From a virus, in IMG/VR virus record IMGVR_UViG_3300046516_000265, positions 1-26,994 of that record: a DNA stretch of 26,994 bases; one strand, given 5' to 3'. Each line of letters starts with the position of its first letter. The first letter of the stretch is position 1. Under the pieces are notes generated by a model. It ran no database searches and was not told the DNA's origin. It saw nothing but the letters and a program-made list of their open reading frames with translations. Position numbers and translations under genes: made by a program. This document shows positions 4,001-24,002 of the stretch, piece after piece.

Positions 4001-4455
4001 GACGCCTCCTGGTGGCCGTCCTGCTCCTCGCAGCCTGCCACGGTGGCACGTCACCCGCCCCAGCCCCGTTGGACGTGTCTGCGAGCCACGGAGCCACCGA
4101 TCCGGCCGTCACACAGGCCAACATCCACCAGACGATCTGCGTCAAGGGCTACACGGCCACCGTCCGACCCCCACTGTCGTACACGGCACCGATCAAGCGG
4201 GCGCAGATCGCCAAGCTGCCGGCGTCAGTCAGCCACAAGTCCTCCGACTACGAACTGGACCATTGGGTGCCGCTCGAGGTGGGCGGCGCACCTTCCAACC
4301 GTGCGAACCTTGTCCTCCAAGCGTGGGCCGGTCCCCAGGGCGCACACGCGAAAGACCAGGTTGAGAACCGGGTCCACGCTGAGGTGTGCTCAGGCAAGGT
4401 GACGCTCGCGGTCGGGCAGGAATGTTTCCTCGTGAACTGGCAGAGGTGCCCATGA
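3997..4455 (+). CDS. exported HNH-type nuclease lipoprotein
   Basis: From the GTG overlapping the previous stop the protein has 152 residues. It begins with a basic N-terminus (RRLL), a hydrophobic core and a lipobox LAAC with Cys14, so it is a predicted lipoprotein on the outer face of the cytoplasmic membrane. After a Thr/Pro linker comes a domain seen in actinobacterial secreted HNH proteins: ICVKGYTATVRPP, then YELDHWVPLEVGG (catalytic His), an Asn in NRANL, and AHAKDQVEN followed by HAEVCSGKVTL...W. The longer ATG start at 3967 would overlap the upstream gene by 34 nt and weaken the signal peptide. DNase activity is inferred from the motif. Degrading incoming or external DNA is a plausible role. 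Confidence 0.75.
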   Translation: MRRLLVAVLLLAACHGGTSPAPAPLDVSASHGATDPAVTQANIHQTICVKGYTATVRPPLSYTAPIKRAQIAKLPASVSHKSSDYELDHWVPLEVGGAPSNRANLVLQAWAGPQGAHAKDQVENRVHAEVCSGKVTLAVGQECFLVNWQRCP

Positions 4456-5048
4456 CCGTGCTCGCGGCGTACCCGTGGAAGACGAACGCTCACCTGATCG
4501 AAGACGTGGCGAAGCTGGGCTACCTGGATGGCCTGGTGCTTGACGCCACGTACGGTCTCGGCACCTGGTGGAAGCGTTGGCAACCGCCGCTGGGCTGGCT
4601 GGTGAAGAACGACCTGCGCGCCCGTGGCGAGGCCCTGTCCTACGACTTTCGCGGCTTCCCCGTCAACTGGGCAGACCGCTACGACGTGGTGGCATTCGAC
4701 CCGCCCTACAAGCTGAATGGCACCCCCGACCCCAGCATCGACAGCCGCTACGGGGTGCATGTGGCGACGACATGGGTGCAACGCCACCATCTGATCCGTG
4801 AGGGGATCAAGGAATGCTGGCGGGTGCTCAAGCCTGGCGGCTACCTGCTGCTCAAGTGCCAAGACCAGGTGTGCTCCGGCCAGATCCGTTGGCAGACAGA
4901 CACGTTCACCGAGTACGCGTGGGCGCAAGGGCTGGTCAAGGTCGATCGCTTCGACATGCTGGGCACCGGCAGGCCGCAACCAGAAGGGCGCCGGCAGGTT
5001 CATGCCCACCAGCGCCCCTCTACGTTGCTTGTCTTCCAGAAGTCGTGA
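4452..5048 (+). CDS. SAM-dependent DNA methyltransferase with DPPY motif
   Basis: 198 residues from the ATG overlapping the lipoprotein stop. LVLDATYGLGTWW (about 29-40) resembles the SAM-binding motif I. VVAFDPPYKLNG (about 79-90) is the catalytic DPPY motif of N6-adenine/N4-cytosine amino-methyltransferases. CWRVLKPGGYLLLKCQD is the usual strand-turn-strand after the catalytic motif. It differs clearly from the Dam-like enzyme at 2520-3017, so the operon has two unrelated modification enzymes and no visible restriction gene. It is the last gene of the rightward operon. Target base and recognition sequence cannot be read from sequence. Confidence 0.85.
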   Translation: MTVLAAYPWKTNAHLIEDVAKLGYLDGLVLDATYGLGTWWKRWQPPLGWLVKNDLRARGEALSYDFRGFPVNWADRYDVVAFDPPYKLNGTPDPSIDSRYGVHVATTWVQRHHLIREGIKECWRVLKPGGYLLLKCQDQVCSGQIRWQTDTFTEYAWAQGLVKVDRFDMLGTGRPQPEGRRQVHAHQRPSTLLVFQKS

Positions 5049-5056
5049 TTCTCGCG

Positions 5057-5076
5057 TGCGCCCCAGAAAGGACGCT
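5057..5076. repeat. 20-bp box, copy 1 (downstream of both convergent operons)
   Basis: TGCGCCCCAGAAAGGACGCT here recurs at 6519-6538 with one mismatch (19/20). In both places it is followed within 6-8 nt by an A6/A7 tract and GC. Copy 1 lies between the end of the methyltransferase gene and the end of the recombinase gene. Confidence 0.75.
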
Positions 5077-5080
5077 GGGC

Positions 5081-5112
5081 CGAAAAAAGCTAGACGGCCG
5101 GACAGTCCGGCC
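5081..5112 (-). terminator. candidate terminator of the leftward (recombinase) operon
   Basis: The perfect inverted repeat GGCCGGAC-A-GTCCGGCC lies at 5096-5112. Read on the minus strand the 8-bp stem is followed, 7 nt later, by a T6 run (5088-5083). It sits about 120 bp past the recombinase stop at 5233 and could also act as a hairpin behind the plus-strand methyltransferase gene, although it has no T run in that direction. Confidence 0.5.
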
Positions 5113-5123
5113 CGCAGGGTCGG

Positions 5124-5179
5124 TGCCCTGGCTCCGGCGCATCGTCCCATGCCCACACCCCGGAGCCGAGATCCCTGGC
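5124..5179. other. nested inverted repeat near the recombinase gene, candidate attachment site
   Basis: GGCTCCGG (5130-5137) and CCGGAGCC (5160-5167) form a perfect 8-bp inverted repeat with a 22-nt centre. TGCC (5124-5127) and GGCA (5176-5179) extend the symmetry at the edges. Serine recombinases commonly act on 40-60 bp imperfectly symmetric sites beside their gene, and the recombinase stop is about 55 bp away. It could also be just a terminator-like hairpin; the long centre argues against that. Nothing else is seen in 5180-5232. Confidence 0.3.
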
Positions 5180-5232
5180 AGGTATGAAACGCTCGTGTCC
5201 CGCGTCGTCGGTGTAGCGGGTTCCCGGGTTCA

Positions 5233-6051
5233 TCAGACGGCCTGCTCCGGTAGGGGCATGTCCAGGTACTTACGTGCCAGGTTGGTTAGCTTCGCCGGCC
5301 GTGGCGTCCCACTCAGCAGCGCACGGTCTAGGACCACCTTGATCGTGGATGGATGCCAGCTCGAGCCTTTGCGGAGTCTCATACCATGACCAGCGAAGAA
5401 CTCTCCAATGACACGGTACGGGACACCCATCTCCCGCATCGTCAACGCCTGCCCGATCGCGGACATCTCGTTAGCGTCCTCCACCAGCAGGCCACCCTCA
5501 GCCTTGAATCCGTACGGTGTGGATCCACCGCCGTAGCCACCGGCCGCCATCTTGCGCCGCCGACCATTCACGCAGCGGACCCGGATCATCTTGCGTTCAT
5601 ACTCTGCGAACGCCCACAGAATCTTCCGGAACAGCACGCGGGTGGGGTCGTCGTCGCCGGCCTCTAGGGCGTCGTTCTCCCCCTCATCGCATGATGCGAG
5701 GGTGCCCTCATTCTGCTGGATCTCGTAGTACACGGACTCTTGCAGCATGGTCTCACGGCCGATCCGGTCCAGCTTGTAGACCACGATCCCATCGGCGCGG
5801 CCGTCCTTGACCATCTGCAACGCTTCGCCCAGGGCGATGCGTTCCGATAGGTGCTTCATCGTTCCGGGGATGCCCTCATCCGCCAGGACCGTGACCAGCT
5901 TGTCGCCGCGTTGGCGAACCCACCGTCTGATCGCATCCCGTTGCGTTTCGAGGCCGTCCCCGTCGGTGACCTGTCCGGGGGACGAGACGCGCAGAAGGCC
6001 CACCCATCGGGTAGGCGCATCCTGCAAACTGACAGCGGACCGTTTGCTCAT
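5233..6051 (-). CDS. short serine recombinase (integrase/resolvase family)
   Basis: A 272-residue protein. The N-terminal resolvase domain (about 15-155) shows LLRVSSPGQ with the likely nucleophile Ser23 and VVYKLDRIGRE at about 91-100. A recombinase domain follows (GGGSTPYGF...GVPYRVIGEFFAGHG...SWHPSTIKVVLDRALLSGTPR). The protein ends there: the zinc-ribbon and coiled-coil domain of large serine integrases (usually 450-600 residues) is missing. It may be a natural short form, a resolvase-like enzyme, or a truncated integrase. It is the last gene of the leftward operon and overlaps its upstream neighbour by ATGA. Integration of the phage is plausible but not proven. Confidence 0.85.
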   Translation of the reverse strand: MSKRSAVSLQDAPTRWVGLLRVSSPGQVTDGDGLETQRDAIRRWVRQRGDKLVTVLADEGIPGTMKHLSERIALGEALQMVKDGRADGIVVYKLDRIGRETMLQESVYYEIQQNEGTLASCDEGENDALEAGDDDPTRVLFRKILWAFAEYERKMIRVRCVNGRRRKMAAGGYGGGSTPYGFKAEGGLLVEDANEMSAIGQALTMREMGVPYRVIGEFFAGHGMRLRKGSSWHPSTIKVVLDRALLSGTPRPAKLTNLARKYLDMPLPEQAV

Positions 6052-6485
6052 GAGTGGTAGTCCACCCCGACGGCGATCGCGTCCCGATTCGCCAGGAACA
6101 ATCGGCCGCTGGTCTCATCCCAGTGCTCATCCGTTACGAACTCCTCACCCGTCCACTCCTCGCGATGATGCGCGGCCCCGTCTGGCGTCACGATCGTGTA
6201 GGGCCGGACCTCGCCCATCTGCCGAACGGGTACAGCGTTGTGAGCCATCTGCTCATGCTCGCCGCTGTAGTGGCAGTCGTGGTCGTTCGCCTGGCACCGG
6301 GCGCACTCCTTGGCACGGTTGACGCCAGCGATGATGCCGTCCCACCGGCCCCCCACGCGGTACCAGTCCCAGAATCCGCACCGCTCCTCGCCGTGGTACT
6401 CCTCCACATGCGGCGCGAGCAGTCGCTCAACCTCAGCGGCTATGTCGTCGCAATCCTTGACTAGCACTACTGCGAACATATGCAT
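6048..6485 (-). CDS. phage hypothetical protein with WYRVGGRW motif
   Basis: 145 residues, starting MHMFAVVLV after a strong Shine-Dalgarno (AGGAGG five bases before the ATG). It contains CGFWDWYRVGGRWDG near residues 36-50, a motif of an uncharacterised protein family found in phages and bacteria, then CARCQ and CHYSGEH, which might bind metal. It is translationally coupled to the recombinase gene (ATGA). The strong ribosome site suggests this gene begins its own translational unit after the terminator-like region at 6547-6623. Function is unknown; co-expression with the recombinase hints at an accessory role. Confidence 0.8.
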   Translation of the reverse strand: MHMFAVVLVKDCDDIAAEVERLLAPHVEEYHGEERCGFWDWYRVGGRWDGIIAGVNRAKECARCQANDHDCHYSGEHEQMAHNAVPVRQMGEVRPYTIVTPDGAAHHREEWTGEEFVTDEHWDETSGRLFLANRDAIAVGVDYHS

Positions 6486-6518
6486 GACTGCCTCCTAAGC
6501 GGGTTGGAAAGTCTGGTG

Positions 6519-6538
6519 TGCGCTCCAGAAAGGACGCT
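6519..6538. repeat. 20-bp box, copy 2 (before the 6048-6485 gene)
   Basis: TGCGCTCCAGAAAGGACGCT matches copy 1 at 5057-5076 with one difference. It lies in the leader of the minus-strand gene that starts at 6485 and is directly followed (plus strand) by the A7 run at 6547-6553. Together the two copies bracket the recombinase gene and its upstream neighbour. Confidence 0.75.
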
Positions 6539-6546
6539 TCCTCACG

Positions 6547-6623
6547 AAAAAAAGCGTGCTGACCTGGTATTCTTCGGTCTGGTCAGTCGTACTGAGCCGC
6601 CCACCGGGGATACCGATGGGCGG
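6547..6623 (-). terminator. double-hairpin terminator-like region after the 6651-7055 gene
   Basis: Read on the minus strand, the stop at 6651 is followed first by a strong hairpin (TGGGCGG/CCGCCCA at 6617-6623 and 6597-6603, with an inner CCG/CGG pair). A second stem follows (CTGACC/GGTCAG, 6581-6586 with 6559-6564), then a T7 run at 6553-6547. This looks like an intrinsic terminator or attenuator inside the leftward operon. The rest of 6486-6650 contains only the 20-bp box and a ribosome site. Confidence 0.5.
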
Positions 6624-6650
6624 GGCACTACGGCCGGCGTCCCTTGACAA

Positions 6651-7055
6651 TCAGACCGTGGCCGTGCGCTCTACCAGCTCCAGGCCGTCGATGGCACCGC
6701 GGAGCATGGTGTAGATCTCGCGTGCGCTGCGGTAGCCACCGCCGAACGGGGTACGAACTCCAGTGCACGGCAGGCCATCGCGGTTGGGGTCCGTCCCGTC
6801 CAGGCCGATGATCTGATGGACCTGCCAGCCGCCATAGGCACCGGACAGGGCCAAGCCACCAGTGATGACGTAGAAGCTGTCGACCTCGCGGCGGTGGAGC
6901 AAGTGGGCGGGGAAGACGCTCCCCGACTGCTTTACGTAGGTGATGGGTGGAGCGTCCGGCCCACCAGTCGTGTAGTGGCCATACGGCAGGCCGGCCCGCT
7001 CACAGTAGACACGTAGGGCCTGCTCAGCATCCTTGCGCGTGATTCGATCGCTCAT
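6651..7055 (-). CDS. phage hypothetical protein, YGGW...PFGG..RSAREIY family
   Basis: 134 residues from the ATG at 7055, which has a good ribosome site (AGGAAAGGA five bases upstream). A GTG ten codons earlier (7085) would run into the structured leader and is less likely. The product has an N-terminal helix (ITRKDAEQALRVYCERAG), a central Gly-rich part with SGAYGGWQVHQI, and a C-terminal PFGGGYRSAREIYTML. This layout (YGG-x-hydrophobic, then PFG, then SAREMY/L) is shared by a small-protein family frequent in mycobacteriophages. Its role is unknown. Confidence 0.75.
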   Translation of the reverse strand: MSDRITRKDAEQALRVYCERAGLPYGHYTTGGPDAPPITYVKQSGSVFPAHLLHRREVDSFYVITGGLALSGAYGGWQVHQIIGLDGTDPNRDGLPCTGVRTPFGGGYRSAREIYTMLRGAIDGLELVERTATV

Positions 7056-7074
7056 GTCTTCCTTTCCTGGTAGT

Positions 7075-7127
7075 GGACCATCCACACCGTGCGACCCCGC
7101 TCACGCGGGATCGTGGCGCTATGGACG
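7075..7127 (-). promoter_or_regulatory. 53-nt structured leader element, copy A
   Basis: Conserved ends GGACCATCCACACCGTG (7075-7091) and GGCGCTATGGACG (7115-7127, plus-strand reading) enclose a hairpin (CCCGC-TCAC-GCGGG core, 7096-7109). Copy B at 7322-7374 has the same ends, the same total length and a stem at the same positions with different bases. Copy A ends 19 bp before the start codon of the minus-strand gene at 7055. It could be a transcribed regulatory leader, a protein-binding RNA or DNA element, or a terminator/attenuator between genes. Confidence 0.6.
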
Positions 7128-7129
7128 CT

Positions 7130-7300
7130 CTAACGCCCCGTAATGGCTGCGTAGGCCATCCCGCGGGCATCGGCCACGGACTCCCCATCGGGAGGGAATC
7201 CGCCACGCTGTAGCCAGTCCAGAAGCGCGGCGCCTAGTTCCTTGCGCTCGTCATCATCCGTGGTCGTGCACATCGCCCGGAAGCATGCTGTAGGGTCCAT
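7130..7300 (-). CDS. 56-residue phage protein (LLDWL.RGGFPP)
   Basis: Starts at the ATG at 7300, preceded by GAAAGGG six bases upstream; the upstream in-frame ATG at 7315 would leave that ribosome site inside the gene. The product MDPTACFRAMCTTTDDDERKELGAALLDWLQRGGFPP resembles small helical actinophage proteins whose helix ends in DWLxRGGFxP. Function is unknown. Structured elements lie on both sides of it, so it may be translated as a separately controlled cistron. Confidence 0.65.
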   Translation of the reverse strand: MDPTACFRAMCTTTDDDERKELGAALLDWLQRGGFPPDGESVADARGMAYAAITGR

Positions 7301-7321
7301 GACCTGCCCTTTCATATGGTG

Positions 7322-7374
7322 GGACCATCCACACCGTGTGAGCCTGCCTAGACAGGCTCAAGGCGCTATGGACG
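7322..7374 (-). promoter_or_regulatory. 53-nt structured leader element, copy B
   Basis: Same conserved ends as copy A, with a different stem: TGAGCCTG (7339-7346) pairs with CAGGCTCA (7353-7360). It ends 21 bp before the start codon of the minus-strand gene at 7300. Its first nine minus-strand bases (CGTCCATAG) also encode the last two codons and the stop of the zinc-finger gene at 7366-7542. Confidence 0.6.
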
Positions 7375-7542
7375 TTCAGTGATTCCTTCGATCACCTCAG
7401 CCATGACAGGCCAGATGGTCTGGAGCACACCGTCATGCCAGCGCCCCTCATGGTTGCGAAGTGACTGCAGAGACGTAGACGGTGGGAAGGTGGCGCCGCA
7501 GTCACAGCACTGGTACCGAGTGATGACCTGCTTGGCATCCAT
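7366..7542 (-). CDS. 58-residue C2H2-like zinc-finger protein
   Basis: Read directly on the minus strand from the ATG at 7542, which overlaps the stop of the upstream membrane peptide (TGATG). The product contains CCDCGATFPPSTSLQSLRNH followed by EGRWH: Cys12-x2-Cys15, then 15 residues, then His31-x4-His36. The Phe and Leu positions are those of a C2H2 finger. The C-terminus is a hydrophobic helix (VLQTIWPVMAEVIEGI). It ends at a TAG inside structured element B. A nucleic-acid-binding or protein-binding regulator is the natural inference; the target is unknown. Confidence 0.65.
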   Translation of the reverse strand: MDAKQVITRYQCCDCGATFPPSTSLQSLRNHEGRWHDGVLQTIWPVMAEVIEGITERP

Positions 7543-7628
7543 CAGGACACCAGCCAGGCCAGAAGGGTGACCAGGGCCACCGCACCAGCGACACGTGCGA
7601 CTAGCAGGCTCACAGCGCGCCTAGTCAT
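7542..7628 (-). CDS. 28-residue hydrophobic membrane peptide
   Basis: A tiny ORF coupled at both ends: its ATG overlaps the stop of the upstream gene (ATGA at 7625-7628) and its TGA overlaps the next ATG. The sequence is MTRRAVSLLVARVAGAVALV then TLLAWLVS, an N-terminal basic pair followed by one membrane-spanning segment with N-in orientation expected. Small membrane peptides of this form are often missed. Function is unknown. Confidence 0.55.
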   Translation of the reverse strand: MTRRAVSLLVARVAGAVALVTLLAWLVS

Positions 7629-7978
7629 GAGTCATCCCCATCGGGATCGCCGTACGCGGATGGGATGGGCTGGTTGCAGTGATCGCACACCAGCTCCGGC
7701 CCTTCCCAGTGCACATCGGCGTCGTCCACCAGCCAACCATCGTGGTCCCCGGTGAAATGGACTTCTGCCTGGGTGTTCATGCACTGAGCGCACAACGTCC
7801 CCGAGTCATCCATCAGGTAGAAGATGGGATACCCACCAGGCCACGCGTAGGCAGGCCACGCCCCGTCTTCTTTGCCAACCTTGCGTGCGATGGCGTCACG
7901 TGCCAGCACTTCATCCGCGCTCTCCTGGTCATGAGCTGCGCAAGCATCCCCGTATTCGACCCACTCGGCCCCGGTCAT
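7625..7978 (-). CDS. phage protein with two CxxC pairs, candidate zinc binder
   Basis: 117 residues. After an N-terminal helical region there is GGYPIFYLMDDSGTLCAQCMN, then an acidic segment (DADVHWEGPE), then LVCDHCNQPIPSAYGD. The two CxxC pairs probably share a zinc ion. This arrangement (YP-[IL]-x-Y, CxxC, W-E, CDxC, IPSAY) matches small proteins I recognise from actinophages, none with a proven role. Its start overlaps the upstream stop by ATGA. Soluble, acidic C-terminus. Confidence 0.75.
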   Translation of the reverse strand: MTGAEWVEYGDACAAHDQESADEVLARDAIARKVGKEDGAWPAYAWPGGYPIFYLMDDSGTLCAQCMNTQAEVHFTGDHDGWLVDDADVHWEGPELVCDHCNQPIPSAYGDPDGDDS

Positions 7979-8157
7979 GACTGCACCAGCTCAGGCCAGC
8001 AGGTAGCGCAGTAGACCGCGTTCGGCTCTAGGAACAGGAAGGAGCGCACCCATCCACCATCGGCGCCGCACACGGTGCGTTCGTCGGATGTGCGCTCAGG
8101 ATGTGAATGCTGGTGAACAACACCAGACTCAGGATCGACAGGAACGTACCCGCTCAT
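7975..8157 (-). CDS. 60-residue small protein with CATC pair
   Basis: ATG at 8157 with a good ribosome site (GAGAGGAG, 6-7 nt upstream). The product has VHQHSHPERTSDERTVCG, then VRSFLFLEPNAVYCATCWPELV. One Cys at about residue 30 plus CATC, with His residues, could coordinate zinc. No family is identified. The leader contains two consecutive hairpins. It ends in an ATGA overlap with the next gene. Confidence 0.65.
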   Translation of the reverse strand: MSGYVPVDPESGVVHQHSHPERTSDERTVCGADGGWVRSFLFLEPNAVYCATCWPELVQS

Positions 8158-8174
8158 GACATTCTCCTCTCAGA

Positions 8175-8214
8175 GCAGCACAAACGCTGCGAGACCAGCA
8201 CCCGGAGATGCTGG
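8175..8214 (-). other. two tandem hairpins in the leader of the 7975-8157 gene
   Basis: CCAGCA/TGCTGG (8195-8200 with 8209-8214) and GCAGC/GCTGC (8175-8179 with 8186-8190) are short perfect inverted repeats just upstream of the ribosome site on the minus strand. They could form an attenuator-like or stabilising leader structure. No T run follows, so a simple terminator is unlikely. Confidence 0.4.
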
Positions 8215-8225
8215 CGGCGCAACGT

Positions 8226-8411
8226 TCAGGCTGGGAGCAGATTGTGAGGCGAGAAACGCAGCCGGCGGCCGGAACGATCCAGGTGGACAGTTACCTTCGA
8301 CCTTCCCACCAGCACAACAGTCCCGAAACGATCCCCAAAGATCCAAGCATCCGTCGCCGGATGAGTCTCCACACGCTGTCCAACTGCGAAATCTGCGAGC
8401 TGGTAGTCCAT
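8226..8411 (-). CDS. 61-residue phage protein (VG.RV..HPATD.W..GDR.GTV family)
   Basis: Start chosen at the ATG at 8411 (GGGGAAC about five bases upstream); an in-frame ATG at 8441 would add ten residues. The product is a small beta-rich protein: FAVGQRVETHPATDAWIFGD, then RFGTVVLVGRSKVTVHLDRSG, then RRLRFSPHNLLPA. This KOW/SH3-like pattern (VGDRV, HP-x-T-D, GDR-x-G-x-V, H-x-D-R-S-G) is typical of a small family widespread in actinophages. Function is unknown. It is the first confident gene behind the leftward promoter at 8460-8489. Confidence 0.75.
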   Translation of the reverse strand: MDYQLADFAVGQRVETHPATDAWIFGDRFGTVVLVGRSKVTVHLDRSGRRLRFSPHNLLPA

Positions 8412-8459
8412 CACCGTTCCCCATCCTGGCCAGCACCCCATGCGCCTGCCGATATAGCA

Positions 8460-8489
8460 ATGCTACGGCAACTAGCAAGCCTGCGTCAA
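8460..8489 (-). promoter_or_regulatory. leftward promoter (TTGACG - 18 - TAGCAT) with operator-like palindrome
   Basis: On the minus strand TTGACG (8489-8484) is followed by an 18-nt spacer and TAGCAT (8465-8460), close to the sigma70/SigA consensus. The predicted start is near 8452, about 40 nt upstream of the first gene start at 8411. The -10 box overlaps a perfect 11-bp palindrome TAGCAATGCTA (8455-8465), a natural place for a repressor to bind. Confidence 0.6.
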
Positions 8490-8577
8490 GCCCGTTTCAC
8501 TGTAAATCCGCACTCATTTGCGCCCGTTCACCACCAGCACGCTGCGGATACACCAGGCTAGAGCGGATAAGAAACAC

Positions 8578-8732
8578 CAGGTCACAGCGTTCTGGTGGTG
8601 TGGGCCGTTAGAGCATGACCATGGGCACGATGGTCGTAAACGTGCAGGTCACAGCGTTGCACGTGCTCGAGCGCTGGCACACAGCACACGCAGGCCAGCA
8701 GCTCACGACCTGGGCGAACGTGCAGGCCACAG
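8578..8732. repeat. direct repeats in the divergent control region
   Basis: CAGGTCACAGCGTT occurs at 8578-8591 and 8645-8658. AACGTGCAGG(T/C)CACAG occurs at 8639-8654 and 8717-8732. CACCAGG also occurs at 8551-8557 and 8575-8581, each just after GCGGATA. The repeats lie between the leftward promoter and the rightward operators, in a stretch (8490-8810) with no confident gene. They could be protein-binding sites or the trace of a local duplication. Confidence 0.5.
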
Positions 8733-8788
8733 GTCTGACCGGGGCATGTGCCGAGGCCGCCCCCCCAAAGCCGAAGGCTTAGTCCCAC
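8582..8788 (-). CDS. doubtful 68-residue Cys/His-rich ORF
   Basis: A minus-strand ORF from a GTG at 8788 with a weak ribosome-like GGAAAG upstream. It encodes two related Cys/His blocks (CGLHVRPGRELLACVCC and CDLHVYDHRAHGHAL), which correspond to the direct repeats in the DNA. Metal binding would be possible. There is no coupling to another gene, no recognised family and no ATG start, and the region may simply be regulatory. Listed because no better gene occupies it. Confidence 0.22.
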   Translation of the reverse strand: MGLSLRLWGGGLGTCPGQTCGLHVRPGRELLACVCCVPALEHVQRCDLHVYDHRAHGHALTAHTTRTL

Positions 8789-8811
8789 AGGGGTTCTTTC
8801 CGGTTTGGTAG

Positions 8812-8859
8812 ATACACCGCTGTACTACCCTTGACATACATCGCTGTATCTGCCAGTGT
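8812..8859 (+). promoter_or_regulatory. rightward promoter with two TACA-N4-TGTA operators
   Basis: TTGACA at 8831-8836, a 17-nt spacer and CAGTGT at 8854-8859 place the transcription start at about 8866, the A of the start codon, so the mRNA is probably leaderless; no Shine-Dalgarno is visible. Two inverted repeats of one design flank or overlap the -35 box: ATACA-CCGC-TGTAC (8812-8825) and ATACA-TCGC-TGTAT (8836-8849), with centres 24 bp apart. A degenerate third site (TGTAGCGGTA) covers 8857-8866. The ribbon-helix-helix product of the first gene is the obvious candidate ligand. Confidence 0.6.
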
Positions 8860-8865
8860 AGCGGT

Positions 8866-9309
8866 ATGGCCGAGCAGATGACTCAGATCATTGTGCGTGT
8901 TCCGAGGGGGGTGCGGGAGTGGTTGGAGGCCGTTCTGGTGGAGTCGGGGGTTCCGATGTCGGTGACGGTTCGTCGGTGCCTCGAGGCGGAGATGGAACGG
9001 TCGTTGGGGTCCAGGATGTCGGGTCCGGGGGGGTCGACCAGTGGTTCGTCTTCTACGTCGGAGAGTGGATCGAGTTCGACAAGGGGACCGCGTTCGAGTT
9101 CAAGCGCCGGTTCGGGTCCGAGTCGTTCATCTGCGACGGACTTCCAGCGCCCTGCGCCGGGGAGAGAGTCGACGCCTCGTGCAGCCTCCGTACCTGCCTC
9201 GAGCACGCGCCCCTCGCACGTCCACAAGCCGAAGTCTCAGGCGGGGAACTTCTCGATCTGCGATTGCGGGGCGACGAAGACTACGGCCGGCGAGTGGAGG
9301 CTGCCGTGA
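8866..9309 (+). CDS. ribbon-helix-helix regulator with Ser-rich linker and CxC tail
   Basis: 147 residues. The N-terminus has the Arc/CopG/MetJ layout: a strand (TQIIVRVP), a first helix (GVREWLEAVLVESG), a turn, and a second helix (SVTVRRCLEAEMERSLG). Residues about 50-110 are an unusual Ser/Gly/Arg-rich linker. The last 30 residues contain HKPKS..N..ICDCGATKTTAGEWR, a CxCG...GEWR ending seen in other actinobacterial and phage proteins. It is predicted to dimerise and bind the TACA-N4-TGTA sites in front of it, repressing its own operon. Translation is probably leaderless. Another frame stays open across the linker, but the conserved ends support this frame. Confidence 0.8.
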   Translation: MAEQMTQIIVRVPRGVREWLEAVLVESGVPMSVTVRRCLEAEMERSLGSRMSGPGGSTSGSSSTSESGSSSTRGPRSSSSAGSGPSRSSATDFQRPAPGRESTPRAASVPASSTRPSHVHKPKSQAGNFSICDCGATKTTAGEWRLP

Positions 9310-10640: not shown

Positions 10641-10762
10641 CCGCCGCCGACGACACACCCCGCCGGCCACCCGTCACCCCGCACACGGATGGCAACCCGT
10701 GGCCGTGGGCGGCACGCACCACCGACGCCCGCCGTGAAGCACTCGACGAGACGGTGCTGTGA
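10637..10762 (+). CDS. 41-residue Pro/Arg-rich mini-protein
   Basis: GTG start overlapping the previous stop. The product is VTAADDTPRRPPVTPHTDGN then PWPWAARTTDARREALDETVL. It is disordered at first, with a short C-terminal helix. It ends with a TGA overlapping the GTG of the next gene. No similarity is recognised. Support is limited to exact coupling and codon bias like its neighbours. Confidence 0.5.
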   Translation: MTAADDTPRRPPVTPHTDGNPWPWAARTTDARREALDETVL

Positions 10763-11109
10763 CCCCGGAACGGCTCGCTGAGATCCGGGACATATACGTC
10801 GATGACGGTCCGATAGCAGGCGACGACCACGGCGCGGCAGTAGTCGAGGAACTTCTCAACGCCCTGGACGCCGCGAACGCCGAGAAGGCTGAACTGGAAC
10901 GGTTGCTCCACGTCCAAGAGGAAGCGTTCGACGCCGACACGAAGCTCGCTGTCGCCGCCCTGGACGCTGCGAACGCCGAGAAGGACCGACTGCAAGCATT
11001 CGCTGATGGTGAGCGTCAGGCGCTCATCGAGACGTGCAGGCGGGAGGCGCAACCGGCCGACGAGGACGATCCTCGCGCCGCCGACTGGCTAAACGAGCAC
11101 CAGTCGTGA
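10759..11109 (+). CDS. MTPERLAEIR-type coiled-coil protein, paralogue 1
   Basis: 116 residues from a GTG. It opens with VTPERLAEIRDIYVDDGPIA, the head of a small-protein family common in actinophages and actinobacteria in which an xTxERLAEIR helix is followed by an ALLxExxRL coiled coil. Two copies of LDAANAEK (about residues 36-43 and 68-75) are encoded by nearly identical DNA. The C-terminus is acidic and ends NEHQS. A second paralogue lies at 11153-11401. Function is unknown. Confidence 0.7.
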   Translation: MTPERLAEIRDIYVDDGPIAGDDHGAAVVEELLNALDAANAEKAELERLLHVQEEAFDADTKLAVAALDAANAEKDRLQAFADGERQALIETCRREAQPADEDDPRAADWLNEHQS

Positions 11110-11277
11110 CCCCCGTCGACTGCACCTGCGACGCCCGTATCGAGGCGCGACCGTGACCCCGGAACGGTTGGCTGAGATTCGGGCGTACATCGGCACCGAC
11201 GAAGACGCCCGTTACCGCGGCAAGGCCAGCGAGATGATTGCCGACTGTCTCGCCGCCCTGGACGCTGCGAACGCCGA
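10860..11277 (+). repeat. three copies of a 24-28-bp coding repeat (LDAANA)
   Basis: CGCCCTGGACGC(C/T)GCGAACGC followed by CGA recurs at 10860-10887, 10956-10983 and 11254-11277. The first two lie in one gene and the third in its paralogue. The gene heads GTGACCCCGGAACGG at 10759 and 11153 are likewise nearly identical. This marks recent tandem duplication. Confidence 0.7.
11106..11156 (+). pseudogene. 16-codon chimeric remnant of two neighbouring genes
   Basis: The ORF VTPVDCTCDARIEARP uses GTGA overlaps at both ends like a real gene, but its DNA is a join. Bases 11107-11135 are identical (29/29) to the head of the gene at 11541. Bases 11133-11164 match 11378-11409 at 29 of 32 positions, the tail of the 11153 gene plus the head of the next. 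The two matches share the three bases GCC, the likely recombination point. It is probably a deletion scar that stays in frame with the coupled operon; translation is possible. Confidence 0.6.
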
Positions 11278-11401
11278 CGCCGCACGGTTGGCAGCGTCGG
11301 TAGCGGTCATCCCCCGCGGCGAATCGATCACCGGCATGGTGGAGATCGAAGCGGCGCTGGCTCTCGCCGCTCACCGTGCCCGCATCGAGACGCAACCGTG
11401 A
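11153..11401 (+). CDS. MTPERLAEIR-type protein, paralogue 2
   Basis: 82 residues from a GTG overlapping the previous stop. VTPERLAEIRAYIGTDEDAR is followed by a helix EMIADCLAALDAANADAARLAASVAV, then IPRGESITGMVEIEAALALAAHRARIETQP. It shares the head and the LDAANA repeat with the gene at 10759-11109 but has a different, shorter C-terminus. Unknown function. Its last bases recur at 11133-11164, showing that this segment has been copied or recombined. Confidence 0.7.
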   Translation: MTPERLAEIRAYIGTDEDARYRGKASEMIADCLAALDAANADAARLAASVAVIPRGESITGMVEIEAALALAAHRARIETQP

Positions 11402-11544
11402 CCCCGGAAGGGTGCCCTAGTCGCATGACCGTTGACGGCGGTGTGTTTCACTGCGAACTACCCGCCGGTCACGACGGACGCCACCAGGAAAGCGACCCCG
11501 ACGGGTACTGGTCGTGCAAGTGGACCACAGGCGATGACACATGA
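11398..11544 (+). CDS. 48-residue CELPAGHDG zinc-ribbon-like mini-protein
   Basis: GTG start overlapping the upstream stop. It retains the VTPE head seen in the two paralogues, then gives GCPSRM...FHCELPAGHDGRHQ...WSCKW. The pattern C...CxLPAGHxGxH...W is a small metal-binding family found in actinobacteria and their phages. The first Cys lies before the internal ATG at 11425, so the GTG start is preferred. The stop overlaps the next ATG (ATGA). Function is unknown. Confidence 0.65.
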   Translation: MTPEGCPSRMTVDGGVFHCELPAGHDGRHQESDPDGYWSCKWTTGDDT

Positions 11545-11672
11545 CCCCCGTCGACTGCACCTGCGACGCCGGCGCGACAGACGGCGGCATCTGCCCCACC
11601 TGCCTCGGCTGGGGCTGGTACCTCACCCTCACCACCGACGACGAACGGCTGCTTGCCGCCGGGAGGAACTGA
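11541..11672 (+). CDS. 43-residue Cys-rich mini-protein
   Basis: ATG overlapping the preceding stop. The product is MTPVDCTCDAGATDGGICPTC followed by LGWGWYLTLTTDDERLLAAGRN. CxC and CPTC would give four ligands for one zinc ion, followed by a hydrophobic strand and a helix. The first 29 bp after the A of the start codon are duplicated at 11107-11135. The gene carries at its 3' end the GGAGG ribosome site for the next gene. Confidence 0.6.
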   Translation: MTPVDCTCDAGATDGGICPTCLGWGWYLTLTTDDERLLAAGRN

Positions 11673-22821: not shown

Positions 22822-24002
22822 GCGGCCAGGACACGACCACCCCGACTATCGACCCGACCCTAGGGATCGGCGCACCACCCCCGACGGGCACGGTGGGCGG
22901 TGTCATCCCCGACCCCACGGCGATCGGTGTCCCCAAGTATCAGACGATCGGCGGGGCGTTCGTCTTCGAGGGGACGAAGTACAAGCGGGTCATCCAAGGC
23001 GGCGACGGCAAGTACTACGCAGTCGATGCTTCCGGGGCGGTGATGACCGATGACAAGGGTCAGCCGCTACAGGATCAGCCGACCACGGACCGGTCAGGCA
23101 CCCCGATCAGGGTGCAAGCCCAGTACGGTCCTGCGCCGCCAGGGTCGAACGTCAACACGCCTGCCGGTGTCACCTCCCGGATTGAGCCTGGTTCGCCGGC
23201 CGCACAGTTGGGGATGGCCGGTCCCGCCCGTTACGACGAGGGGGCTGAGTGGTCGCTGTTCGCTCAGATGCCTGCGGAGCAGCGGGTGCAGGTGCAGCAG
23301 GCAATGATCGACCGTGGGATCGCCCCGTCGACTGGTGTGGCTAACGGGGCGTTCACCACGGACTGGTTGTCGTCGTTCAAGACGATCCTCGGCTACGCGA
23401 ACGCGAACAACCAGAACTGGGAGGATGCTCTCGCTTCGATGCCGCAGGTTGACCGCACGAAGACGGTCACCGTGCAGCCGAACCAGTACGAGGTCCATCT
23501 GGCCTCCCCGCAGGATCTCGCCGCTGTGTACCGCAAAGCGATCGCTGACACGATCGGCGGGGGCGCTGTGCCTCAGTCGGAGGTGGATTCGTTCGTCCGG
23601 GCGTACCAGGAGATGCAGCGCACCGATCAGGAGACGGCGAACGCAGCGAAGGAGAAGGCGATCGCTGACGCCGGCCTCGGCCAGCAGGTGGCGATCGGTC
23701 CTGACGGGAAGCCTCTGCCGACTGGCACCCCGCCGGGTACCGACATCGCCCCTGGTGTTCTCCCGGACAGTGCCGCTACCGCAGCAGGGCCGGTGGGTAC
23801 CGGGTTGCCGACTCCGGGTGTGACGACGACGACAGCCACAGAGTCGCCACAGCAGTTCGCGTTGGACCAGGTGAAGCAGAAGTACGCCGGCCGGTACGCA
23901 GCGACGAACATGGCTAACGCGTACGGATTGTTCGTCAACTCGATGGCAGGGTTGGGCGCGACCGGTGGGGCTGCCCCGTCCACGGTGGGCACGGCGACCT
24001 GA
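22818..24002 (+). CDS. modular virion protein, Pro-rich ends
   Basis: 394 residues, ATG overlapping the giant gene's stop. An N-terminal Pro/Thr-rich tail leads to a beta section (FVFEGTKYKRVIQGGDGKYY). A helical module follows (WSLFAQMPAEQRVQVQQAMI, DWLSSFKTILGYANANNQNW), then a second block (HLASPQDLAAVYRKAIADTI, EVDSFVRAYQEMQ). The last block resembles a repeated domain I associate with internal or structural proteins of uncultured phages and actinophages. It probably belongs to the same virion assembly as its neighbours. No enzyme motif is visible. Confidence 0.7.
   Translation: MSGQDTTTPTIDPTLGIGAPPPTGTVGGVIPDPTAIGVPKYQTIGGAFVFEGTKYKRVIQGGDGKYYAVDASGAVMTDDKGQPLQDQPTTDRSGTPIRVQAQYGPAPPGSNVNTPAGVTSRIEPGSPAAQLGMAGPARYDEGAEWSLFAQMPAEQRVQVQQAMIDRGIAPSTGVANGAFTTDWLSSFKTILGYANANNQNWEDALASMPQVDRTKTVTVQPNQYEVHLASPQDLAAVYRKAIADTIGGGAVPQSEVDSFVRAYQEMQRTDQETANAAKEKAIADAGLGQQVAIGPDGKPLPTGTPPGTDIAPGVLPDSAATAAGPVGTGLPTPGVTTTTATESPQQFALDQVKQKYAGRYAATNMANAYGLFVNSMAGLGATGGAAPSTVGTAT

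Follow-up and report, generated by a model that had tools for sequence, protein, structure and literature searches.

Covarying RNA hairpins predicted at the cistron borders of a leftward phage operon

The RNase III signals of phage T7 are hairpins placed between the cistrons of polycistronic phage mRNA, and their sequence is partly free. One such site, R1.1, is 60 nt long, has an asymmetric 4/5 internal loop and lies between genes 1.0 and 1.1 (PMC6121014). A second group of intercistronic elements comes from actinobacteriophages and is associated with start codons. The ESAS/SAS repeats of cluster K mycobacteriophages are intergenic elements of about 50 bp with two conserved arms and a variable centre, found upstream of some non-structural genes; they contain SigA-like promoters and imperfect inverted repeats (PMC11373665), and the authors of the original description found little support for mRNA hairpins (PMC3203893). 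In Microbacterium phages of clusters EC, EF, EG and EI, similarly oriented motifs of 18 bp (30 bp in EI) lie in short gaps, 14–30 bp upstream of starts, and the accessible text of that account describes no covarying RNA fold for them (PMC7302621). Here we describe a set of elements that resembles both groups of actinobacteriophage repeats in layout (PMC3203893, PMC7302621, PMC11373665, PMC12699233) and that its sequence shows to be a family of structured RNAs of about 50–65 nt, lying in sense orientation within a phage operon that runs leftward.

The DNA analysed, referred to below as the window, is a 26,994-base stretch of an IMG/VR viral record with 65% GC. No DNA relatives of the window were found among 50,697 phage records, named phages gave neither a DNA match nor a close protein match, and the relatives of its terminase and portal proteins are only distant (about 35–39% identity for the portal). 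Its minus-strand operon (Table 1) has nine junctions between genes, comprising five overlaps of 1–4 nt and four gaps, and each of the four gaps holds one copy of the hairpin. The chance of four copies all falling in gaps is (372 gap nt/26,994)^4 = 4e-8. The copies start between 9 nt before and 14 nt after the end of the upstream ORF. Judged from sequence, each element is flanked by the stop codon of the preceding cistron and the predicted Shine-Dalgarno (SD) sequence of the following one.

Table 1. Coordinates of the minus-strand operon and of the four hairpin copies (c1–c4) in the window.
Feature	Position	Strand	Description	Basis
Promoter	8460–8489	-	sigma-70-like, TTGACG-18-TAGCAT, before the operon	sole such match in 4900–9000; shuffle expectation 0.7, weak call
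ORF, 71 aa	8226–8441	-	first gene of the operon, upstream of c3	
c3 (diverged)	8181–8228	-	outer helix UGAACGUUGCG/CGCAGCGUUUG, 9-bp inner stem, UCCG (UNCG) loop; layout UGAACGUUGCG-CC-(9 bp, UCCG loop)-CU-CGCAGCGUUUG	R1 match, descriptor scan, fold
ORF, 60 aa	7975–8157	-	downstream of c3	
ORF, 117 aa	7625–7978	-	related to phrog_18452	E 5e-20
ORF, 58 aa	7366–7542	-	Cys/His-rich, upstream of c2	
c2	7326–7374	-	outer helix as in c1, inner stem UGAGCCUGU/GCAGGCUCA, loop CUAG	fold
ORF, 56 aa	7130–7300	-	between c2 and c1	
c1	7079–7127	-	outer helix CGUCCAUAGCG/CGGUGUGGAUG with G·G mismatch, inner 9-bp stem, GUGA (GNRA) loop	fold, covariance model
ORF, 134 aa	6651–7055	-	between c1 and c4, without family match	
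c4 (diverged)	6584–6636	-	outer helix CGGCCGUAGUG/CAGUACGACUG with G·G mismatch, 11-bp inner stem; layout CGGCCGUAGUG-CC-(11 bp)-CU-CAGUACGACUG	R1 match, descriptor scan, fold
ORF, 145 aa	6048–6485	-	downstream of c4	
Serine recombinase	5233–6051	-	resolvase N-terminal domain, integrase-like; near the operon end	

Several features of the surroundings were recorded separately. The serine recombinase is just 272 aa long, below typical large serine integrases, yet it matches the phage integrases of phrog_95 (E 8e-43). A block containing its gene (6485–5090) is flanked by a 27-nt direct repeat at 5050–5076 and 6512–6538 (minus-strand sequence AGCGTCCTTTCTGG[G/A]GCGCAC) with a CTTTTTT(T)CG tract in front of it; the repeat may be a recombination site or delimit an inserted cassette. 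The strongest minus-strand hairpin of the window (4975–5034, -42.4 kcal/mol, z -6.7) lies at the convergent end of the operon and a plus-strand methyltransferase-like gene at 4386–5048. Beside the operon, and divergent from it, a small gene at 8866–9309 encodes a protein whose N-terminus resembles ribbon-helix-helix proteins; directly upstream, at 8797–8866, the plus strand has a promoter-like TTGACA accompanied by inverted repeats (TACACCGCTGTACTA, TACATCGCTGTATC), and the arrangement looks like an autoregulated switch. Tandem small genes starting VTPERLAEIR at 10739–11570, whose start regions are repeated and which contain an exact 29-nt repeat (11107, 11542), point to local gene duplication.

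The two most similar copies, c1 and c2, had been noticed in an initial annotation as 53-nt repeats of equal length with identical ends, and direct reading and a repeat search (family D3) both recover them at 7075–7127 and 7322–7374. The 17-nt end GGACCATCCACACCGTG is common to 7075–7091 and 7322–7338, and the 13-nt end GGCGCTATGGACG to 7115–7127 and 7362–7374. The two compensatory changes listed at the same time are also present: CG at 7092/7113 becomes TA at 7339/7360, and CG at 7098/7107 becomes TA at 7345/7354. We found a third on the minus strand, where U·G at 7110/7095 is replaced by G-C at 7357/7342. Altogether seven bases differ between the two inner stems (four on one arm, three on the other), amounting to three double changes and one single-sided change that still pairs, and all nine pairs are kept. 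With the changes placed at random, all nine pairs survive with P = 0.0017 (about 0.002), and with P = 0.001 when at least three double changes are demanded as well. The alignment of c1 with c2 needs no structural guidance, and the pair thus shows the preservation of pairing by compensatory change expected of a covarying structured RNA element (P about 0.001). The spacing to the genes also agrees with the annotation, the minus-strand starts at 7055 and 7300 lying 19 and 21 nt past the 53-nt units.

This earlier description is correct, yet it covers half of the feature. It missed that the conserved ends of c1 and c2 base-pair with each other on the minus strand, G·U pairs included, that two further, diverged copies occupy the remaining two gaps of the operon, and that every copy adjoins or contains the upstream stop codon or sits within 14 nt of one. 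Thus c1 begins 2 nt past the stop TAG at 7132–7130 and ends 23 nt before its downstream start, c2 contains the stop TAG of the upstream ORF (7368–7366) and ends 25 nt before the next start, c3 opens with the upstream TGA and ends 23 nt before the start at 8157, and c4 lies 14 nt past the TGA at 6653–6651 and 98 nt before the start at 6485. The term leader, used for the repeats in the annotation, is therefore misleading: the elements are intercistronic, and their link to the downstream start is no closer than that to the upstream stop. They are also not coding, since the copies lie in gaps and their overlap with genes is limited to stop codons and the final few codons.

The neighbouring genes have the minus strand as their sense strand, and on it the whole element folds as a single hairpin. 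An outer helix of 11 positions is followed by a 2–3/2 internal loop, an inner stem of at least nine pairs and a short loop. The internal loop is 3/2 in c1 (CCA/CA) and c2, and 2/2 in c3 and c4. Near it, the sequence C-R-U-W-G-Y-G-C-C is common to all four copies, while the inner stem is free to vary, and a G·G mismatch usually occupies the ninth position of the outer helix. The GNRA and UNCG classes to which the loops of c1 and c3 belong are typical of stable RNA hairpins. Minimum free energies are -35.8 kcal/mol for c1 and -30.1 kcal/mol for c2. Minus-strand folds of c1–c4 have z-scores of -4.9, -3.8, -4.5 and -2.6, far better than shuffles, and the plus-strand folds are unremarkable (-1.0, -1.3, -0.4 and -1.7).

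The diverged copies were reached by two routes. A covariance model built from c1 and c2 only (R1) was scored over the whole window, and once c1, c2 and their antisense images are set aside its leading non-self sites on the minus strand were 23315–23355, inside a coding region, followed by 6579–6639 (c4) in second and 8175–8232 (c3) in third place; both are weak matches, at 12.9 and 12.3 bits. A descriptor specifying the 11-position outer helix, the 2–3/2 loop and an inner stem of at least 8 bp gave exactly four minus-strand matches in 27 kb, namely c1–c4, against 0.48 per shuffled window on both strands; the descriptor had been loosened to admit c3 and c4, so that this count is partly circular and the placement of the two copies in gaps is not.

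Four further copies were found in three other phage contigs, one each in L153 and L219 and two in L158 (L158a and L158b), giving eight copies in four contigs. Those of L153 and L158 came from scanning portal-related contigs, and each of them immediately follows a stop codon in a leftward operon made up of small genes. All four relative copies follow a stop and precede a start on the sense strand, at 24 nt (L158a), 35 nt (L153), 38 nt (L219) and 46 nt (L158b) from the next start. The core A(G)CG..CG(G)U is common to the window copies, L153 and L158 (alignment A5), and, once L219 is counted in, the G·G mismatch is kept in seven of the eight copies. The centre stays paired in these relatives; an unpaired centre in homologous phages had been named in the annotation as evidence against the fold. 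R1 by itself is marginal on them (11.6 bits for L158, 10.5 for L153), and the putative homology with L153 and L158 rests instead on the combination of position, core, mismatch and a second model, R2, built from seven copies (c1–c4, L153 and both of L158). Over 1.04 Mb, R2 returned only its seven training copies at E <0.4. It also finds the eighth copy, outside the training set, at L219:4490–4556 (E 6e-7), in a contig that had been fetched by a pattern taken from the 5′ arm.

Operon genes are common to L153, L158 and L219 (alignments A7 and A8). What the window has in common with L153 and L158 is confined to genes of the plus-strand block (terminase, portal and others), and tblastn found no operon protein common to the window and L153, L158 or L219.

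Weaker candidates form a fringe around this set. A ninth candidate, marginal at E 0.04, has the same core and lies in L161 ahead of a gene that starts MDIPCTRCSEPG and resembles the MDIYC family. A weak R2 match at L009:10272–10328 (22.7 bits, E 0.0065) directly follows the stop of a 322-aa DUF932-like gene and precedes a promoter-like TTGACA...TACTAT. Hairpins of other sequence (GACUGAUUGACAG.../...GGGCUAAUCAGUC) in the distant relatives L131 (4587–4644), L139 (5269–5324) and L130 have the same stop-hairpin-start layout, 21–24 nt from the start; those of L131 and L139 differ by at least one compensatory change. Other searches yielded only matches that we set aside. The exact-arm pattern CATCCACACCN{15,45}GGCGCTATGGA had no match in IMG/VR and five in bacterial genomes, where inspection revealed no such hairpin and the matches were taken as chance, as were those to CCATCCACACCGTG alone (L009 being one of the contigs concerned). 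Searching with the element alone by blastn gave short matches, the best being 26 nt inside portal genes, or a chance match of an end. R2 found no element in two mycobacteriophages that carry the family of L153's large neighbouring gene. A generic screen of gaps for the stop-hairpin-start layout proved unspecific, a control set giving equal numbers of matches, mostly coding-like, and we claim no general enrichment.

Covariation extends across the copies. A structural alignment of the four window copies has 98.7% standard pair cells, with double changes at 12 of 19 pairs; for seven copies the values are 96.2% and 16 of 19, and sliding the partners by one base lowers pairing to 32–40%. Rows other than c1 and c2 were aligned with the structure, so that these counts lean towards the fold; nor are copies from the same genome independent of one another. 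The eight copies contain 24 G·U pairs against a single A·C mismatch, an asymmetry of the kind expected of RNA, in which G·U is tolerated and A·C is not. The difference between minus- and plus-strand folding arises because of the G·U pairs, and the excess of G·U over A·C indicates that the sense RNA is selected and not a DNA cruciform. The annotation had proposed selection for a folded RNA or a cruciform; its first half is upheld by the minus-strand folds and the G·U count, and its second is disfavoured. We regard the RNA element as well supported by these comparisons, with a predicted fold that is fixed and a sequence much of which is free.

Searches for known element types returned little. 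Rfam gave no match in the window at the gathering score, and a relaxed threshold produced only chance-level miRNA matches. The 13-bp SAS GGGATAGGAGCCC (or GGGAAAGGACCCC) had 6 and 14 matches at up to three mismatches, which is not above chance, and none at these starts. No SigA-like -35/-10 pair lies inside the repeats, the promoter of Table 1 being the sole promoter-like site in 4900–9000. Unlike ESAS/SAS, therefore, the elements have neither the 13-bp SAS nor an internal SigA promoter, and their arms form an RNA helix with compensatory changes; the Microbacterium phage repeats have other consensus sequences and shorter motifs. The annotation's statement that no phage leader of this form had been described thus needs qualifying: intergenic start-associated repeats are known in actinobacteriophages (PMC3203893, PMC7302621), but the accounts of them speak of DNA repeats and promoters, not of covarying RNA. 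The layout shared with known repeats, together with the lack of an SAS, an internal promoter or an Rfam match, suggests an intercistronic phage mRNA hairpin that is new as a family and whose function is putative.

The elements would act in polycistronic mRNA at cistron borders. No U-tract directly follows the stem in any of the eight copies, and the operons of L153 and L158 end with simple hairpin-plus-T terminators separate from the elements; with the position at cistron borders and the lack of an internal promoter, this argues for a border function at the level of mRNA. Our best guess at the most likely action, offered as a leading candidate that falls somewhat short of even odds, is an RNase III-type processing signal and 3′-end-stabilising hairpin. 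If a double-strand RNase of the host cut in or close to the internal loop, upstream messages would keep a protective 3′ stem and downstream messages would receive a clean ribosome-binding site 23–25 nt away, so that the phage would control how stable the products of adjacent small genes' transcription are and in what stoichiometry those genes are expressed. Like the T7 signals, the elements are about 60 nt long and intercistronic, with two helices of about one turn and a small internal loop, and they match R1.1 in size, position and shape. The absence of any operon protein common to the window and L153, L158 or L219 points to a host factor and not to a dedicated phage partner, which also favours processing. 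Against it, the 2–3/2 internal loop is smaller than the 4/5 loop of R1.1 and lacks its asymmetric 4/5 form. An enzyme that needs little sequence also leaves unexplained why the AUAGCG/CGGU core and the G·G mismatch are conserved; these features set the elements of this uncultured high-GC phage apart from the T7 signals and look more like a protein-binding determinant. The constant 23–25 nt to the start in c1–c3 suggests that translation matters too.

A rival candidate is a role as a spacer between translation units, which we consider possible at roughly one chance in four. The hairpin would bring the stop codon and the next SD sequence close together for re-initiation, or would insulate the next ribosome-binding site and keep it open, and ribosomes terminating at the stop codon would open its outer 5′ arm. 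The stop codon of each window copy is in that arm or 0–14 nt away from it, elements occur only where genes do not overlap, and the base of the hairpin is 23, 25 and 23 nt from the start in c1–c3, 24 nt in L158a and 21–24 nt in the hairpins of unrelated sequence in L130, L131 and L139. The distances in c4, L153, L158b and L219 (98, 35, 46 and 38 nt) are longer, however, the downstream genes have SD-like sequences of their own so that coupling is not needed, and the G·G core is left unexplained here too.

The core would be accounted for if the hairpin were the site of a phage or host RNA-binding protein recognising AUAGCG..CGGU with its G·G, for example in antitermination or in coordinated translational control of an early/lysogeny operon. 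Retention of the mismatch in nearly every copy, conservation next to the internal loop beside a free inner stem, and one site common to several genes, as in a regulon, all fit such a site. We nevertheless think it rather unlikely, as the element lies upstream of the SD/start region, unlike classical translational operators, and no candidate partner protein common to the operons was found.

A leaky transcription terminator or attenuator without a U-tract is improbable. A GC-rich hairpin directly past a stop codon is what many intrinsic terminators look like, but no T run follows any of the eight copies and a terminator scan finds none there, T-tract hairpins close the L153 and L158 operons separately, and the long two-tier stem with its outer-helix mismatch pattern, set at a fixed distance from the next start (23–25 nt in three of the four window copies), is not required by a terminator. 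Finally, a DNA-level element (a cruciform, a repressor operator or an ESAS-like promoter) in which the repeat acts as double-stranded DNA has the precedent of cluster K ESAS, intergenic repeats with SigA-like promoters and imperfect inverted repeats (PMC11373665, PMC3203893), but is very improbable given the G·U excess, the poor plus-strand folding, the lack of an internal promoter or of SAS motifs above chance, and an inner sequence free to change.

A common RNA shape thus seems to be the phage's mark for gene borders, and it may serve in cutting or protecting the mRNA. A bolder reading, to which we give about the same modest weight as to the translational spacer, is that the elements represent a new class of structurally conserved RNA hairpin with a G·G-mismatch recognition core. 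Such hairpins would stand at each border between translational units in the early/lysogeny operon of a lineage of uncultured phages, where either the ribosome or a dedicated protein would read them; if so, the element would stay where it is as the genes around it are swapped. Since 2011 no function has been agreed for the start-associated intergenic repeats of actinobacteriophages, and for those of cluster K RNA hairpins were judged unlikely. The present set is of similar layout and selection acts on its RNA fold itself; with eight copies in four contigs, a role in mRNA processing, mRNA stability or translation at cistron borders becomes testable. R2 provides a compact model for finding such elements, and the case carries a warning that repeat finders detect only the most recent copies of an older and more widespread fold.
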